A DNA stretch of 64,000 bases from Halosegnis marinus (GTDB lineage Archaea; Halobacteriota; Halobacteria; Halobacteriales; Haloarculaceae), in assembly GCF_029338355.1 (NCBI RefSeq), contig NZ_CP119802.1, positions 2,046,001 through 2,110,000 on the forward strand. The letters run 5' to 3'. Every line of letters starts with the position of its first letter. Position 1 is the first letter of the stretch. Positions 19,705-56,752 of the stretch are shown in pieces. The translations under genes were made by a program, and so were the position numbers. Below the pieces are notes generated by a model. That model saw only the letters and a list, made by a program, of their open reading frames with translations, was not told the origin of the DNA and ran no database searches.

Positions 19705-19723
19705 CACACCGGGATACGGTGAA

Positions 19724-20034
19724 GTGGACTAGGTCGGGCGGTTAGGCCCCGCTCGTCACCCGCGCTATGGTCTTCAGCGGGGACCGAATCCCGGTAGCGT
19801 CCGACCCGACCGGTTCGGGCCCCGGGAGCCAACGTAGAAACCTCGTCCCACGAGGGCAGCGGTCCGCGTACCGACCTCTGCAGGGAGGTCGCGGCGCGGT
19901 TAGTCGCGGGCACTCCGTCAGGCACGGAAGTGAGCAGCGGACCCGCGGACACCTGTCGCCCGTGGGGTCGCGGGGTGGAGGAGGCAACCGGGATTCCCCG
20001 AGTCGGAACGGCCGGGCAACGCCGGGCGTCCACC
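19724..20034 (+). ncRNA. ffs: Signal recognition particle RNA (7S RNA)
   Basis: About 311 nt, the size of haloarchaeal SRP RNA, in a 374-nt gap between protein genes. Ends pair: GTGGAC at 19724-19729 with GTCCAC at 20028-20033. The S-domain contains the helix 8 signature, CAGGCACGGAAGTGAGCAGC at 19918-19937, which holds the GGAA tetraloop and the AGCAGC internal loop that binds SRP54. Helix 6 is seen as GACCTC (19873-19878) pairing with GAGGTC (19885-19890), the SRP19 site. The 5' Alu domain starts with the TCGGGCGGTTAGG stretch. It targets proteins to the membrane. The exact ends are estimated from pairing and the TATA spacing. Confidence 0.9.
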
Positions 20035-20045
20035 CATTCATTCCG

Positions 20046-51287: not shown

Positions 51288-52839
51288 GATGCTCGAACTC
51301 CTCATCGGGCTCTGCCTGCTGGGGGCGTTCGTCGTGTTCGTCCTCCCGGACGAGTACGCACCGAAGGCCGCGCTCGGCATCTCGCTGGCGCCGCTGGCCG
51401 TCGCGCTGTACATGTACTCGCAGTTCGACGGGGCCGGCAACGCGCTGCTCGGCGGCGACATCGCCTTCGAGTCGCAGTACGCGTGGCTGACGCTCGGCCG
51501 CTACGACGTGACGTGGCACATGGGCCTCGACGGCATCTCGATGCCGCTCGTCGTCCTGTCGGCGCTGCTCACCACGCTCGCGATACTGGCGTCGTGGACG
51601 CCCATCGACGAGCGCCACAGCCAGTTCTACGGGCTGATGCTGTTCATGGAGGCGGCGCTCATCGGCGTCTTCGGCGCGCTCGACTTCCTCGTCTGGTTCG
51701 TCTTCTGGGAGGCCGTCCTCGTGCCGATGTACTTCCTCATCGGCGTCTGGGGCGGCGCCCGCCGCAAGTACGCGGCGATCAAGTTCTTCGTCTACACCAA
51801 CATCGCCTCCATCGTGATGTTCATCGGCTTCTTCGGGCTGGTGTTCGGGCTGGGCGACTCGATCTCCTCGCTCGATCTGCCGGCCATCGCGCAGGCGCTG
51901 CGCGCCGACGAACTCGGCTCGCTCGGCCTGCTGTCGGCCGGACAGGTGGCGACGCTCGCGTTCGTCGCCATGTTCATCGGCTTCGCGGTGAAGGTGCCCG
52001 TCGTCCCGTTCCACACGTGGCTCCCGGACGCCCACGTCGAGGCTCCCACCCCGGCGTCGGTGATGCTGGCGGGCGTCCTCCTGAAGATGGGAACGTACGC
52101 GCTGCTCCGGTTCAACTTCACCATGCTGCCCGAGCAGGCGGCGGCGCTCGCGGTGCCCATCGCCCTGCTCGGCGTGATATCCATCATCTACGGCGCGCTG
52201 CTCGCGCTGGCGCAGTCGGACCTCAAGCGCATCGTCGCGTACTCGTCCGTCTCGTCGATGGGGTATGTCACGCTCGGCCTCGTCGCCTACACGCTGTACG
52301 GCGTCGGCGGCGCGACGTTCCAGATGGTGAGCCACGGTCTCATCTCCGGCCTGCTGTTCGCCTGCGTCGGCGTCATCTACAACACGACGCACACGCGTAC
52401 GGTCGGGGACATGTCCGGACTCGCGGACAAGATGCCCGTGACGGTCGGCGCGTTCATCGCGGGCGCGTTCGCCTACATGGGCCTGCCGCTGATGGCCGGC
52501 TTCGCGGCCGAGTTCTTCGTCTTCGTCGGCTCGTTCGGCGCCGCCTTCGCCGGCGCGCCGATATTCACGGCCGTGGCGATGTTCGGTATCGTCATCGTGG
52601 CCGGCTACCTGCTGTGGTCGATGCAGCGCACGCTGTTCGGCCCGTTCCGCTCGGAGACCGACTACGAGGTCGTCCCCGCGGCGGTCCACGACGTGGTGCC
52701 GCTGCTCGTGCTCATCGCCTTCATCATCGCGCTGGGCACGTTCCCGTACGACCTCGCGTTCGACATGATACTCGACGCGACCGAACCCGTCCTCGAAACC
52801 GGCGGTGAGGTCGCGGCGACCTACGGAGGTGTTCCCTGA
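51286..52839 (+). CDS. nuoM: NADH-quinone oxidoreductase subunit M
   Basis: A 517-residue antiporter-like subunit. Motifs WHMGLDGISMPLVVLSALLT, FWEAVLVPMYFLIGVWGG with the conserved Glu, VVPFHTWLPDAHVEAPTP near residue 245. Start options are GTG 51277, ATG 51286 and ATG 51289; ATG 51286 is taken. It is followed by nuoN with a TGATG overlap. Confidence 0.94.
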   Translation: MMLELLIGLCLLGAFVVFVLPDEYAPKAALGISLAPLAVALYMYSQFDGAGNALLGGDIAFESQYAWLTLGRYDVTWHMGLDGISMPLVVLSALLTTLAILASWTPIDERHSQFYGLMLFMEAALIGVFGALDFLVWFVFWEAVLVPMYFLIGVWGGARRKYAAIKFFVYTNIASIVMFIGFFGLVFGLGDSISSLDLPAIAQALRADELGSLGLLSAGQVATLAFVAMFIGFAVKVPVVPFHTWLPDAHVEAPTPASVMLAGVLLKMGTYALLRFNFTMLPEQAAALAVPIALLGVISIIYGALLALAQSDLKRIVAYSSVSSMGYVTLGLVAYTLYGVGGATFQMVSHGLISGLLFACVGVIYNTTHTRTVGDMSGLADKMPVTVGAFIAGAFAYMGLPLMAGFAAEFFVFVGSFGAAFAGAPIFTAVAMFGIVIVAGYLLWSMQRTLFGPFRSETDYEVVPAAVHDVVPLLVLIAFIIALGTFPYDLAFDMILDATEPVLETGGEVAATYGGVP

Positions 52840-54317
52840 TGGCGATAGAACCCCCACTCGCGGCCGTCGCGCCGACCTTCGTGTTGGCCGTGACCGCGCT
52901 CGTCCTGTTCGCGTTCGACAGCATCGACCCCGATTCGAGCAACAACCCCGTGCTGGCGGGCATCGCGTTCGTCGGCTCGCTCGCCTCGATGGGCGTCGCC
53001 GCGGTGTATCTCGTCTCGGGCGTCGGCTCGCCCGCGACCGAGGTGTACGGCGGCCAGCTCGTCGTCGACGACATGGCGCTGTTCTTCCAGTTCATCTTCG
53101 GCAGCGTCACGGCGCTCGTCGCGCTCGCGAGCTACGACTACCTGCAGGACCTCCGCTACCAGGCGGAGTACTACATCCTGCTGCTGCTGGCGGCGACGGG
53201 GATGAGCCTGATGGCCTCCGCGGGGTCGCTCGCGGTGGGCTTCGTCGCCCTCGAACTCGCGTCGCTCCCCTCGTACGCGCTCGTCTCCTTCCTCAAGGAG
53301 GACCGCGGCAGCGTCGAGGCGGGGCTGAAGTACTTCCTCATCGGCGCGCTCTCGTCGGCGGTGTTCGCGTACGGCATCTCGCTGGTGTACGGCGCGACCG
53401 GGTCGCTGCTGCTCTCGGACGTGGCGACCGCGGTCGGCGGCTCCGGCCTGCCCGGCGTGCTCGGCGTCGGCGTGCTGATGGTGCTTGGCGGCTTCGCGTT
53501 CAAGACCGCCTCCGTCCCGTTCCACTTCTGGGCGCCGGAGGCCTACGAGGGGGCGCCCGCGCCCGTCTCGGCGTTCATCTCCTCGGCCTCGAAGGCGGCC
53601 GGCTTCGCGCTCGCCTTCCGCGTGATGGTCGTCGCGTTCCCCATCGGGAGCGTCGTCGGCGCCATCGACTGGGTGCTCGCGGTGCAGATACTCGCCGTCG
53701 TCACGATGACGCTCGGCAACTTCGCCGCGGCGACCCAGGAGAACGTCAAGCGGATGCTCGCGTACTCGTCGGTCGGCCACGCCGGCTACGTCCTCATCGG
53801 GCTGGCCGCGCTCACCGGCACCGGGAACGCGGACATCGTCCTCGGCTCGGGGATGATCCACCTGCTCGTCTACGGCTTCATGAACACCGGCGCGTTCCTG
53901 TTCATCGCGCTGGCCGAGTACTGGGGCGTCGGCCGCACCTTCGAGGACTACAACGGCCTCGCGACGCGCGCGCCGCTGGCGTGCGTGGCGATGACCGTCT
54001 TCATGTTCTCGCTCGCCGGCCTCCCGGTCGGCGGCGGCTTCGTCTCGAAGTACTACCTCTTCGCCGGCGCGGTCAACGCCGGCGTCTGGTGGCTCGCCCT
54101 CGTCGGCGCGGTGAACAGCGCCCTGTCGCTGTTCTACTACAGCCGCGTCGTCAAGGCGATGTGGATAGAGGAGCCGGCCGAGGGCGTCGACGTGTCCTCC
54201 TACCCGGCGACGCTGTACGCGGCCGTCATCGCGGCGGCCGTCGCCACCGTCGTCCTGCTGCCCGCGCTCGGGCTGTTCTCCGGTATCGCGTTCGACGCCG
54301 CGGCCGTCTTCTTCTGA
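52839..54317 (+). CDS. nuoN: NADH-quinone oxidoreductase subunit N
   Basis: A 492-residue antiporter-like subunit. Signature ELASLPSYALVSFLKEDRGS with the conserved Glu (about residue 137), FKTASVPFHFWAPEAYEGAP and NVKRMLAYSSVGHAGYVLIG. It closes the operon. There are no nuoE, F or G genes after it, as expected for archaeal complexes using another electron donor module. Confidence 0.94.
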   Translation: MAIEPPLAAVAPTFVLAVTALVLFAFDSIDPDSSNNPVLAGIAFVGSLASMGVAAVYLVSGVGSPATEVYGGQLVVDDMALFFQFIFGSVTALVALASYDYLQDLRYQAEYYILLLLAATGMSLMASAGSLAVGFVALELASLPSYALVSFLKEDRGSVEAGLKYFLIGALSSAVFAYGISLVYGATGSLLLSDVATAVGGSGLPGVLGVGVLMVLGGFAFKTASVPFHFWAPEAYEGAPAPVSAFISSASKAAGFALAFRVMVVAFPIGSVVGAIDWVLAVQILAVVTMTLGNFAAATQENVKRMLAYSSVGHAGYVLIGLAALTGTGNADIVLGSGMIHLLVYGFMNTGAFLFIALAEYWGVGRTFEDYNGLATRAPLACVAMTVFMFSLAGLPVGGGFVSKYYLFAGAVNAGVWWLALVGAVNSALSLFYYSRVVKAMWIEEPAEGVDVSSYPATLYAAVIAAAVATVVLLPALGLFSGIAFDAAAVFF

Positions 54318-54374: not shown

Positions 54375-54383
54375 GCTTTTACC
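54375..54383 (+). promoter_or_regulatory. TATA box of the Rossmann-DHH gene
   Basis: GCTTTTACC centred 28 nt before ATG 54407, which separates this gene from the nuo operon. Confidence 0.55.
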
Positions 54384-54406: not shown

Positions 54407-55879
54407 ATGCCATCCCGGCTCGTGTTGGGGTGCGGGTCGGTCGGCCGCCGCCTCGCCGTCGCGGGGAACGGCCGCGTCCATGTCGTGACGACCGACGAAC
54501 ACCGCGTCGAAACCCTTCGGTCGGACGGAATCGCCGCCACCCGCGGCGACCCGACGGACCCAGACGTGCTCGCGGAGGTCCCCTTCGACCCCGAGACGGT
54601 CATCGTCGGGAGCGACGACCCCGCCCGCAACCGCGCGGCCGTCCGCGTCGCCGCCGAGCGGTACCCCGACGCGCGGCTGTTCGCGTTCGCCGGCCGCGCC
54701 CCGACGGACGCGGACATGACGGCGCTCACCGCCGTCGCGGACGACGTGGTCGACCCCCGCGCGGAGATATCGGAGTTCCTCATGGAGCGGGTCGGCGACG
54801 CCGGCCTCCGCACCCGCCGGCTGAAGCGCGTCCTGCGGAACGCCGCCGCCCCGCTCGCCGTCATCGCCCACGACAACCCCGACCCCGACGCCATCGCCAG
54901 CGCCGTCGCGCTGAAACACGTCGCGGAACGCGCCGGAACGCCCGCGGAGGCGTGTTACTTCGGGGACATCAACCACCAGGAGAACCGCGCGCTCGTGAAC
55001 CTGCTTGAGTTCGAACTGACCGAACTCGACCCCGACGAGGACCTCTCGCGGTTCGGCTCCGTCGCGCTCGTGGACCACTCCCGGCCCGGGGTGAACGACC
55101 AGCTCCCGGAGGACACCGAGGTGGACGTGGTCATCGACCACCACCCGCCGCGCGCACCCGTCGAGGCGCGGTTCGTGGACCTCCGCTCGGACGTGGGCGC
55201 GACCTCGACGCTCCTCACGGGCTACCTCCGGAAGCTCGGCATCGAGCCGACGCCGTCGCTCGCTACCGCCCTGCTGTTCGGCATCCAGGTCGACACCCGG
55301 GACTTCTCGCGGGAGGTCGCCGGCGAGGACTTCGACGCGGCGGCGTATCTCGTCCCGCACGCCGACGCCGCGATGCTCGAACGCATCGAATCGCCCAGCG
55401 TCAGCGTCGAGACGTACGAGATACTCGCGCGCGCCATCACCGCCCGCGACGTGCGCGAGGACGTGGTGACGACCTACGTCGGCGACATCGGCGACCGCGA
55501 CGCGCTCGCACAGGCGGCGGACCAGCTGCTCGGGCTGGAGGGGGTGACAACGACGCTCGTCTTCGGGACGGTCGACGACACCGTGTTCGTGTCCGCGCGC
55601 GCACGCGGGACGGACCTCGACCTCGGGGAGGCGCTCCGCGAGGCGTTCGGACAGATCGGCTCCGCGGGCGGCCACGCCGACATGGCGGGCGCCCAGATAC
55701 CCGTCGGCGGGCTCGCGGACGACGAGGAGGACACCGACGAGGTCATCCGCGGCGTCATCACGGACCGCTTCTTCGAGACGCTCGGCGTAGGGGAAAACAC
55801 CGCGGCACGAGCCGTGTACGCCGACGGCGAGTACCTCGGCACGCTCGACCGCTCGCCCGAGCGCGGCGACGGCGACTGA
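54407..55879 (+). CDS. DHH-DHHA1 phosphoesterase with N-terminal Rossmann domain
   Basis: A 490-residue protein. Residues about 1-125 form a TrkA-N/RCK-like Rossmann domain (LVLGCGSVGRRLAVA at the start). Residues about 140-480 are DHH plus DHHA1: AHDNPDPDAIASAVALKH, VALVDHSRPG, DVVIDHHPPR and GIQVDTRDFS metal sites, and the DHHA1 loop GSAGGHADMAGAQIP. All catalytic residues look intact. Relatives degrade short RNAs or cyclic dinucleotides, or phosphate esters. The N-terminal fold usually senses NAD or ion-transport ligands. The substrate is unknown. Confidence 0.88.
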   Translation: MPSRLVLGCGSVGRRLAVAGNGRVHVVTTDEHRVETLRSDGIAATRGDPTDPDVLAEVPFDPETVIVGSDDPARNRAAVRVAAERYPDARLFAFAGRAPTDADMTALTAVADDVVDPRAEISEFLMERVGDAGLRTRRLKRVLRNAAAPLAVIAHDNPDPDAIASAVALKHVAERAGTPAEACYFGDINHQENRALVNLLEFELTELDPDEDLSRFGSVALVDHSRPGVNDQLPEDTEVDVVIDHHPPRAPVEARFVDLRSDVGATSTLLTGYLRKLGIEPTPSLATALLFGIQVDTRDFSREVAGEDFDAAAYLVPHADAAMLERIESPSVSVETYEILARAITARDVREDVVTTYVGDIGDRDALAQAADQLLGLEGVTTTLVFGTVDDTVFVSARARGTDLDLGEALREAFGQIGSAGGHADMAGAQIPVGGLADDEEDTDEVIRGVITDRFFETLGVGENTAARAVYADGEYLGTLDRSPERGDGD

Positions 55880-55890
55880 CGGGGCGCGGG

Positions 55891-55898
55891 GTTTTTGC
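55891..55898 (+). promoter_or_regulatory. TATA-like element of the CBS-ParB-like gene
   Basis: GTTTTTGC centred about 27 nt before ATG 55922, giving a leaderless transcript and favouring this start over an upstream in-frame one. Confidence 0.45.
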
Positions 55899-55921
55899 GC
55901 GCCGCCGTCCTCGCTCGGGGC

Positions 55922-56752
55922 ATGGCACAGGGGACGCTCGACGGCAAGCCCGAGGTCCGCGACTACATGACGCGGGACGTGGCGACCGTCTCGCCGGACG
56001 ACACCGTCGCGGAGGTGGCCCGCCGCATCGCCGAGAGCGAGGAGACCCACTCGGGGTTCCCGGTGACGAGCGGCCGGCGCGTCGAGGGGTTCATCACGGC
56101 GCGCGACCTGCTGCTCGCCGACGACGAGGCGCCCATCTTCACCGTGATGACCGACGACATCATCGTCGCCCACCCGGACATGAAGATAACCGACGCCGCG
56201 CGGGTCATCCTCCGGTCGGGCATCCAGCGGCTCCCCGTCGTCGACGACGCGGGGAACCTCGTTGGCATCATCTCGAACGCCGACGTGGTGCGCTCCCAGA
56301 TAGAGCGCGCGACCCCGGACAAGGTGGCGAAGCTCATGAAGACGCTGACGAACATCCACGACGTGGGGACGCGCGAGGAGCGCCGAACCGTGAGGCTCGC
56401 CGATCTGACGCCGACCCAGAGCAAGGTGTACACGGACGAACTGGAGGGCCGCAGCTACGAGCTGGAGAACGGGCTCGCGGAGCCGCTCGTCGTCATCGAC
56501 AGCCCCGTCCGCCGGGGGCCGGGCGGCGACGGCCGCCTCCTGCTCGCGGACGGCCACCACCGCGTGAAGGCGGCCCACCGGCTCGGCATCGAGGAGATGG
56601 ACGCGTACGTCATCGTGCTCGACGAGCCGGTGGAACTGGGGATGGCCGAGACGGCCCGCAAGGAGGGCCTCGACTCGGTGGCCGACATCGAGGAGGTCGA
56701 CTACGCACACCACCCGCTCGTGGAGACGACGAAGCGGCTCCAGGAGGAGTAA
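55922..56752 (+). CDS. CBS-domain pair fused to ParB-like domain
   Basis: A 276-residue protein. Residues about 10-125 are two CBS domains (MTRDVATVSPDDTVAEVARR and ITDAARVILRSGIQRLPVVD), which bind adenine nucleotides. Residues about 160-245 show ParB/sulfiredoxin-like features: LADLTPTQSKVYTDELEGRS, PLVVIDSP and LLLADGHHRVKAAHRLG with the conserved GHHR. Thus it may sense energy or nucleotides and act on DNA or a phosphorylated substrate. The function is unknown. It lies 42 nt after the DHH gene. Confidence 0.85.
   Translation: MAQGTLDGKPEVRDYMTRDVATVSPDDTVAEVARRIAESEETHSGFPVTSGRRVEGFITARDLLLADDEAPIFTVMTDDIIVAHPDMKITDAARVILRSGIQRLPVVDDAGNLVGIISNADVVRSQIERATPDKVAKLMKTLTNIHDVGTREERRTVRLADLTPTQSKVYTDELEGRSYELENGLAEPLVVIDSPVRRGPGGDGRLLLADGHHRVKAAHRLGIEEMDAYVIVLDEPVELGMAETARKEGLDSVADIEEVDYAHHPLVETTKRLQEE

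Follow-up and report, generated by a model that had tools for sequence, protein, structure and literature searches.

The closest described relative of the phosphoesterase studied here is GdpP (PDB 5xsi and 9n0l), a membrane protein that also has PAS and GGDEF-like domains. Our protein has all of GdpP's catalytic motifs and finds in it its best match by both sequence and fold, yet the two are only ~24% identical, and the archaeal protein carries an N-terminal TrkA_N Rossmann domain instead of the additional parts of GdpP. The stand-alone phosphodiesterases NrnA, CnpB and DhhP share the same DHH-DHHA1 core and are strong fold matches, but they have no Rossmann domain and differ in their substrate ranges (nanoRNA, pAp, pApA and c-di-AMP).

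Cellular c-di-AMP must be tightly controlled, and three proteins of Haloferax volcanii, HVO_0756, HVO_0990 and HVO_1690, have been predicted to be its phosphodiesterases, the enzyme itself not having been identified (PMC8305020); the Haloferax enzymes that degrade c-di-AMP or pApA have elsewhere been stated to be unknown (PMC8646023). HVO_0990 and HVO_1690 increase in abundance under hypochlorite stress (PMC10294847). As HVO_0979 is nuoB, HVO_0990 falls just after the nuo operon and is, by gene position only, probably the ortholog of the DHH gene described here; a c-di-AMP phosphodiesterase had thus been predicted before for this probable ortholog. No activity of HVO_0990 is reported in the literature that we found, and the literature searched did not contain the co-loss test, the mirror-image decay of paralogs, the promoter evidence or the separation of the neighbouring gene presented below.

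The neighbouring gene encodes a protein with the same architecture as the archaeal CBS-ParB fusions of PMC12704722. In that survey, CBS is the most frequent archaeal fusion partner of the ParB fold, mainly in Methanobacteriota and Haloarchaea; members of the fold have CTP, ATP or GTP as their ligand, and no sequence rule is reliable. We follow its description of the roles of the C-motif and the P-motif; the sections consulted name no nucleotide for this family and discuss neither the gene neighbours of CBS-ParB nor its independence from c-di-AMP. SerK (TK0378, PDB 5x0b) has the ParB/Srx fold and the DGHHR sequence in common with CBS-ParB but lacks the CBS pair, and its E30 corresponds to a Gln in the CBS-ParB family.

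Results

The window, that is, the whole stretch of 64,000 nucleotides of Halosegnis marinus DNA that was analysed, contains the features listed in Table 1. The original prediction placed an intact DHH-DHHA1 protein 42 nt before a protein with two CBS domains and a ParB-like domain, and the open reading frames, both on the (+) strand, their domains and their motifs confirm this. The N terminus of the first protein had been called TrkA-N/RCK-like: TrkA_N (RCK_N) is indeed present, while TrkA_C is absent, and the Rossmann domain shows little conservation across the clade to which the protein belongs (clade A). The window also holds an archaeal SRP RNA at 19722-20035 (+; Rfam RF01857, 198.7 bits).

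Table 1. Features of the DHH and CBS-ParB locus, in window positions
Feature	Position	Strand	Basis or remarks
nuoN, at the end of the nuo (complex I) operon	52839..54317	+	ORF list; conserved upstream neighbour, context only
TATA-like element ctttta, centred ~28 nt 5' of the DHH start codon; putative leaderless promoter	54376..54381	+	
Rossmann(TrkA_N)-DHH-DHHA1 phosphoesterase, clade A, 490 aa; proposed c-di-AMP/pApA phosphodiesterase	54407..55879	+	Pfam, motifs, tree, DAC profile of single-copy relatives, model
TrkA_N Rossmann domain, residues 1-115	54407..54751	+	GxGxxG kept here but degraded in the majority of clade-A orthologs
DHH catalytic domain, residues 151-293	54857..55285	+	HDNPDPDA, VDH, DHH (codons 55136-55144); DT just downstream
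DHHA1 substrate-binding domain, residues 353-441	55463..55729	+	SAR and AGGH motifs
T-run, centred ~28 nt 5' of the CBS-ParB start codon; putative separate leaderless promoter	55892..55896	+	
CBS-CBS-ParB/sulfiredoxin-fold protein, 276 aa; putative adenylate-sensing, NTP-binding	55922..56752	+	
CBS pair, residues 12-125	55955..56296	+	
ParB/Srx-fold domain, residues 150-259	56369..56698	+	C-motif loop GLAEP 184-188; P motif DGHHR 210-214 (56549-56563)

In the DHH protein, Pfam shows TrkA_N (residues 5-115; 47.1 bits, cut-off 23.8), DHH (151-293; 45.6 bits, cut-off 28.1) and DHHA1 (353-441; 53.7 bits, cut-off 25.9) alone, all above the curated cut-offs; the PAS and GGDEF-like domains and the membrane segments of GdpP were not found. 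The catalytic motifs H155-DNPDPDA, VDH, D244-H245-H246, DT, SAR and AGGH are all intact, making up a complete set of DHH motifs I-IV and the GGH of DHHA1, and the same motifs are invariant or near-invariant in 44 clade members. The top PDB match by sequence is the cyclic-di-AMP phosphodiesterase 9n0l (E 5e-15), with 5xsi second, and the AlphaFold2 model (pLDDT 89) likewise matches GdpP first by fold (E 5e-21); the T. maritima phosphodiesterase and Borrelia DhhP are among its best fold matches too, Mn-pyrophosphatases are also matched, and NrnA, Rv2837c and Deinococcus RecJ-like structures are matched strongly. The Rossmann domain has its GxGxxG in the form LGCGSVG. The acidic residue after beta-2, which in RCK (TrkA) proteins holds the nucleotide ribose, is missing (VVTTDEHRV, versus VLILDKDEGRVE in the paralog B described below). 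TrkA_C (RCK_C) is the c-di-AMP site of KtrA-type receptors, and with no Pfam match to it up to E 1, the DHH protein does not have the hallmark of the RCK (TrkA) receptors of c-di-AMP.

The window genome encodes a protein with the domain of c-di-AMP synthases (DAC), and the co-occurrence of the two families was analysed within one phylum. Inside the haloarchaea, nearly all genomes have both, and the profile is uninformative. Among 204 non-haloarchaeal Halobacteriota, where the Rossmann-DHH protein is mostly single-copy, the two agree in 190 genomes (173 with both and 17 with neither), seven having just the one and seven just the other. At a completeness of at least 95%, 120 of 135 genomes have both, 13 have neither and two are discordant, one (G151) with DAC but without DHH and one (G167) with the reverse; Fisher's test of this association gives 4e-16, a value that ignores the relatedness of the genomes. 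The co-losses represent at least two independent events, one in family f33, where both genes are missing from 9 of 9 genomes, and one in genus g69, where 8 of 8 are concordant, two with both genes and six with neither. Since other, weaker DHH-domain matches remain in the genomes lacking Rossmann-DHH, its absence is specific and not a problem of detection. Joint occurrence and co-loss with DAC support a role of the Rossmann-DHH protein as a putative c-di-AMP phosphodiesterase. The original suggestion of a nucleotide degrader thus gains a likely substrate class, c-di-AMP, from the DAC profile and from the GdpP-type proteins that are the best matches in sequence and fold.

Four DHH paralogs are present in the window genome: A, the gene of this locus; B, full length at 475 aa; C, 367 aa, which lacks the Rossmann domain; and D, 390 aa, whose DHH-DHHA1 part follows a hydrophobic N-terminal stretch. 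The active sites of C and D are intact. In the tree, clade A is exclusively haloarchaeal (support 99/99), and B clusters with the single copies of methanogens rather than with A, the support of 94/86 being not decisive. When A and B were compared across 14 matched haloarchaeal genomes, the mean pairwise identity of A was 0.32 in the Rossmann part and 0.61 in the DHH part, and that of B 0.69 and 0.66, respectively. The GxGxxG motif is intact in 4 of the 14 A proteins, eroded in the other 10, and intact in every B; the DHH triad, conversely, is intact in all 14 A proteins and in two of the B proteins. In B, the motif-IV Asp has become Glu and the AGGHADMAG signature is lost. Both the Rossmann part and the active site are kept in the sampled methanogen copies. 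Haloarchaeal B, to judge from these motifs, is likely a pseudoenzyme; no conserved neighbours that would explain it were found. The simplest reading of the mirror-image decay would be a division of labour after duplication.

The lineages f2, f9 and f11, early or reduced haloarchaea, have DAC, and no clade-A protein was found in them: f9 and f11 carry B together with a C-type protein, and the incomplete genomes of f2 have a D-like protein only. C or D could therefore be the main c-di-AMP enzyme, and they may share that role or hold it. Some further observations concern these paralogs. In the window genome, B lies at G000:C1:2419793-2421181; in haloarchaeal B generally, GxGxxG is pristine, DHH has changed to DHY, DHF or DRF and the other catalytic motifs are lost. 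The gene at G000:C1:1931654-1932583 encodes a D-type protein whose N terminus is hydrophobic and whose active site is intact; it lacks the Rossmann domain, and a relative is the sole DHH match of this group in two reduced f2 genomes with DAC. In one genome (G038, L071), a D-type gene sits just upstream of A, and in another (G115, L150), B sits beside A on the opposite strand.

Of the 146 genomes covered in the haloarchaeal order, 142 have CBS-ParB and 144 a DHH match. In 112 of the 135 genomes with matches listed for both, CBS-ParB follows the DHH gene within 1 kb and in the same orientation, a strongly conserved gene order; these genomes represent every one of the 14 families and 47 of the 52 genera, and contig breaks account for 4 of the 23 exceptions. 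Outside the haloarchaea, a DHH gene was found near CBS-ParB in none of 20 loci from 17 families. The wider haloarchaeal block reads nuoL-nuoM-nuoN-DHH-CBS-ParB-mcm, with nuoN adjacent to DHH in 90 of the 113 genomes having both on one contig. All three of nuoN, DHH and CBS-ParB are together in 78 genomes, DHH-CBS-ParB is kept without nuoN in 19 and nuoN-DHH without CBS-ParB in 12, and 4 genomes have none of the links; in a further 15, nuoN is on a separate contig. These counts mean that the two links break independently, that of the pair being somewhat more durable. In the reduced or early lineages f2 and f9, CBS-ParB follows nuoN with no DHH between them. The nuo neighbourhood looks like an inherited nuo-DHH-CBS-mcm block.

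Upstream of the DHH gene, the AT frequency rises at -28 to 0.94, against ~0.3 around it (66 orthologous loci), and upstream of CBS-ParB it rises at -28/-27 to 0.79, against the same background of ~0.3 (81 loci). An AT peak at -28 is the pattern expected of TATA boxes in leaderless haloarchaeal genes, and each gene thus probably has its own putative promoter, read-through being possible. A reading of the pair as an operon was considered and is weakened by these separate TATA-like signals.

The CBS-ParB protein has two CBS domains above the Pfam cut-off and a ParBc_2 match below it (E 0.0012). A PDB fold search with the whole model was swamped by the CBS domains, and the C-terminal domain was searched by itself as a profile built from 24 diverse archaea; this profile finds ParB (E 4e-5) and Spo0J (0.0025) and, weakly, the free serine kinase SerK (0.038), in which DGHHR is identical. 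The structural matches of the AlphaFold2 model (pLDDT 85) are viral ParB/sulfiredoxin proteins. The protein has the ParB/Srx fold with the C-motif loop and a GxxR P motif, and G184, E187, P188 and DGHHR are invariant across the family. No helix-turn-helix match was found, and the chain ends after the ParB fold with no C-terminal dimerisation domain; it is therefore not a canonical ParB DNA clamp. Orthologs are full-length and 43-57% identical among the non-haloarchaeal Halobacteriota, and the family is, judging by these sequences, ancient.

Two features separate this family from c-di-AMP: it is kept in all 8 genomes of g69, including the six without DAC and Rossmann-DHH, and it is missing from families f19, f22 and f24, which mostly have both. 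CBS-ParB thus does not follow c-di-AMP, and the profile speaks against it as an effector of that signal, the part that the original prediction had suggested for it. The NCBIfam model of the c-di-AMP-binding CbpB scores 25.4 bits on CBS-ParB (cut-off 125). Another gene is its frequent neighbour: in 31 of 71 genomes from outside the haloarchaea, the gene that comes directly after CBS-ParB on its strand is hisE. These include all sampled genomes of 8 of the 14 families, in which the two genes nearly touch or overlap (L111, L115, L117, L118, L124 and L127-L130). The identity of hisE is given by TIGR03188, above cut-off. In several methanogen families (L115, L117, L118, L119, L122, L127 and L130), a further ORF that clusters with CBS-ParB adjoins it on the opposite strand and is probably a second CBS protein. 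Our best guess for CBS-ParB, based on its domains and motifs, is a putative adenylate-sensing, NTP-binding regulator.

Discussion

The original interpretation is supported in part. Taken as a whole, the reading that we hold to be somewhat favoured is that the clade-A DHH protein is a c-di-AMP-class phosphodiesterase standing beside an independent CBS-ParB protein. As for substrate, ligands and regulation, we infer that the clade-A protein would use divalent metals at its DHH motifs to hydrolyse c-di-AMP, yielding pApA and/or AMP, and would end the signal of a DacZ-type cyclase whose gene lies at another place in this genome. CBS-ParB would be a separate protein, in which a CBS pair with adenine nucleotides as its expected ligands precedes an NTP-binding ParB/sulfiredoxin fold; it would not be tied to c-di-AMP and would neighbour the DHH gene as part of the inherited nuo-DHH-CBS-mcm block. 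Several facts speak against this reading: C and D are two further intact DHH-DHHA1 proteins in the same genome; f2, f9 and f11 have DAC, and no clade-A protein was found in them; the co-losses were seen for the single-copy protein of methanogens, and that protein clusters, not decisively, with B and not with A; the independent co-losses are few; and two near-complete genomes disagree.

The DHH protein might instead be a housekeeping nanoRNase or a pAp/pApA phosphatase of the NrnA kind with no specific role in c-di-AMP turnover. DHH enzymes are often promiscuous, NrnA, Rv2837c and the Deinococcus RecJ-like structures are all strong fold matches, and four paralogs leave room to divide substrates; related archaeal DHH proteins can, furthermore, be pAp-specific and inactive on c-di-AMP, the P. 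yayanosii pApase being specific to pAp (PMC8268124), and NrnB proteins are inactive on c-di-AMP (PMC12709177). We nevertheless find this unlikely, as the loss of the diadenylate cyclase ought to leave a housekeeping RNase in place, whereas this protein has gone with the cyclase in two lineages that retain other DHH-domain matches, and as GdpP ranks first by both sequence and fold. That degrader and CBS-ParB effector should act jointly on c-di-AMP, in connection with energy or osmotic state through nuo, is improbable. The breadth of the adjacency (112/135 genomes, 47 genera) and the survival of the pair in the 19 genomes where nuo has moved away would suit such a module, but nuoN-DHH also survives without CBS-ParB in 12 genomes, the pair is found in none of the 20 loci outside haloarchaea and has separate promoter signatures, and the CbpB score of 25 is far from its cut-off of 125; CBS-ParB, moreover, persists where DAC and DHH are gone and is absent where both occur.

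For CBS-ParB, hisE offers one lead: the protein could be an adenylate-sensing regulator in histidine/purine metabolism linked to HisE, its place beside the haloarchaeal DHH gene being a relic of rearrangement. The linkage across all sampled genomes of eight families and the confirmed identity of hisE argue for this, yet CBS-ParB also occurs in genomes without a hisE-like match (f28 and f30 in part; in f18 the match is at most marginal), and hisE is unlinked in haloarchaea and six other families; the idea is a tentative one, and a partnership with HisE proper was set aside and retained as a rival because CBS-ParB occurs without hisE. A SerK-like small-molecule kinase regulated by the CBS pair, which the common ParB/Srx fold and DGHHR bring to mind, is very improbable and was dropped as the leading idea. 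Position 30 of SerK is Glu in 5x0b and Gln in the 5x0j sequence; its counterpart in the CBS-ParB alignment is Q166, which is invariant in 24 diverse members. As E30 has a catalytic role in SerK, an invariant Gln makes a SerK-type reaction unlikely. The authors of the SerK study could not find clear homologs outside four genera (PMC5120207).

The reading as a c-di-AMP-class phosphodiesterase also takes in the decay of A and B, with A as the catalytic one of the two haloarchaeal paralogs. In methanogenic relatives, one protein combines an intact Rossmann domain with an intact active site; in haloarchaea, A has kept the active site while its Rossmann domain drifts, and B has kept a perfect Rossmann motif and lost the catalytic triad, and may regulate A or another DHH enzyme in trans. 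In its full form, this would mean that an ancestral c-di-AMP phosphodiesterase with a nucleotide sensor was divided in haloarchaea between two near-universal proteins, a catalytic A with a decaying Rossmann sensor and a sensor pseudoenzyme B that controls A in trans by reading NAD(H), ATP or c-di-AMP, a scenario that we consider doubtful. If true, c-di-AMP turnover would be set by pseudoenzyme B. Whatever the details, the mirror-image decay provides a clear case for dissecting sensor from catalyst.

The DHH protein is a candidate for the missing 'off switch' of the archaeal c-di-AMP signal, and the co-loss pattern directs the question of the degrader to one protein family, where it is testable in a genetic model archaeon. 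On the side of CBS-ParB, independence from c-di-AMP spares the search for a false effector, and hisE provides a new lead for a widespread archaeal family. Genus g69 makes a natural experiment on the loss of c-di-AMP signalling: G201, G225, G292, G300, G316 and G340 have neither DAC nor Rossmann-DHH, and their sister species have both.
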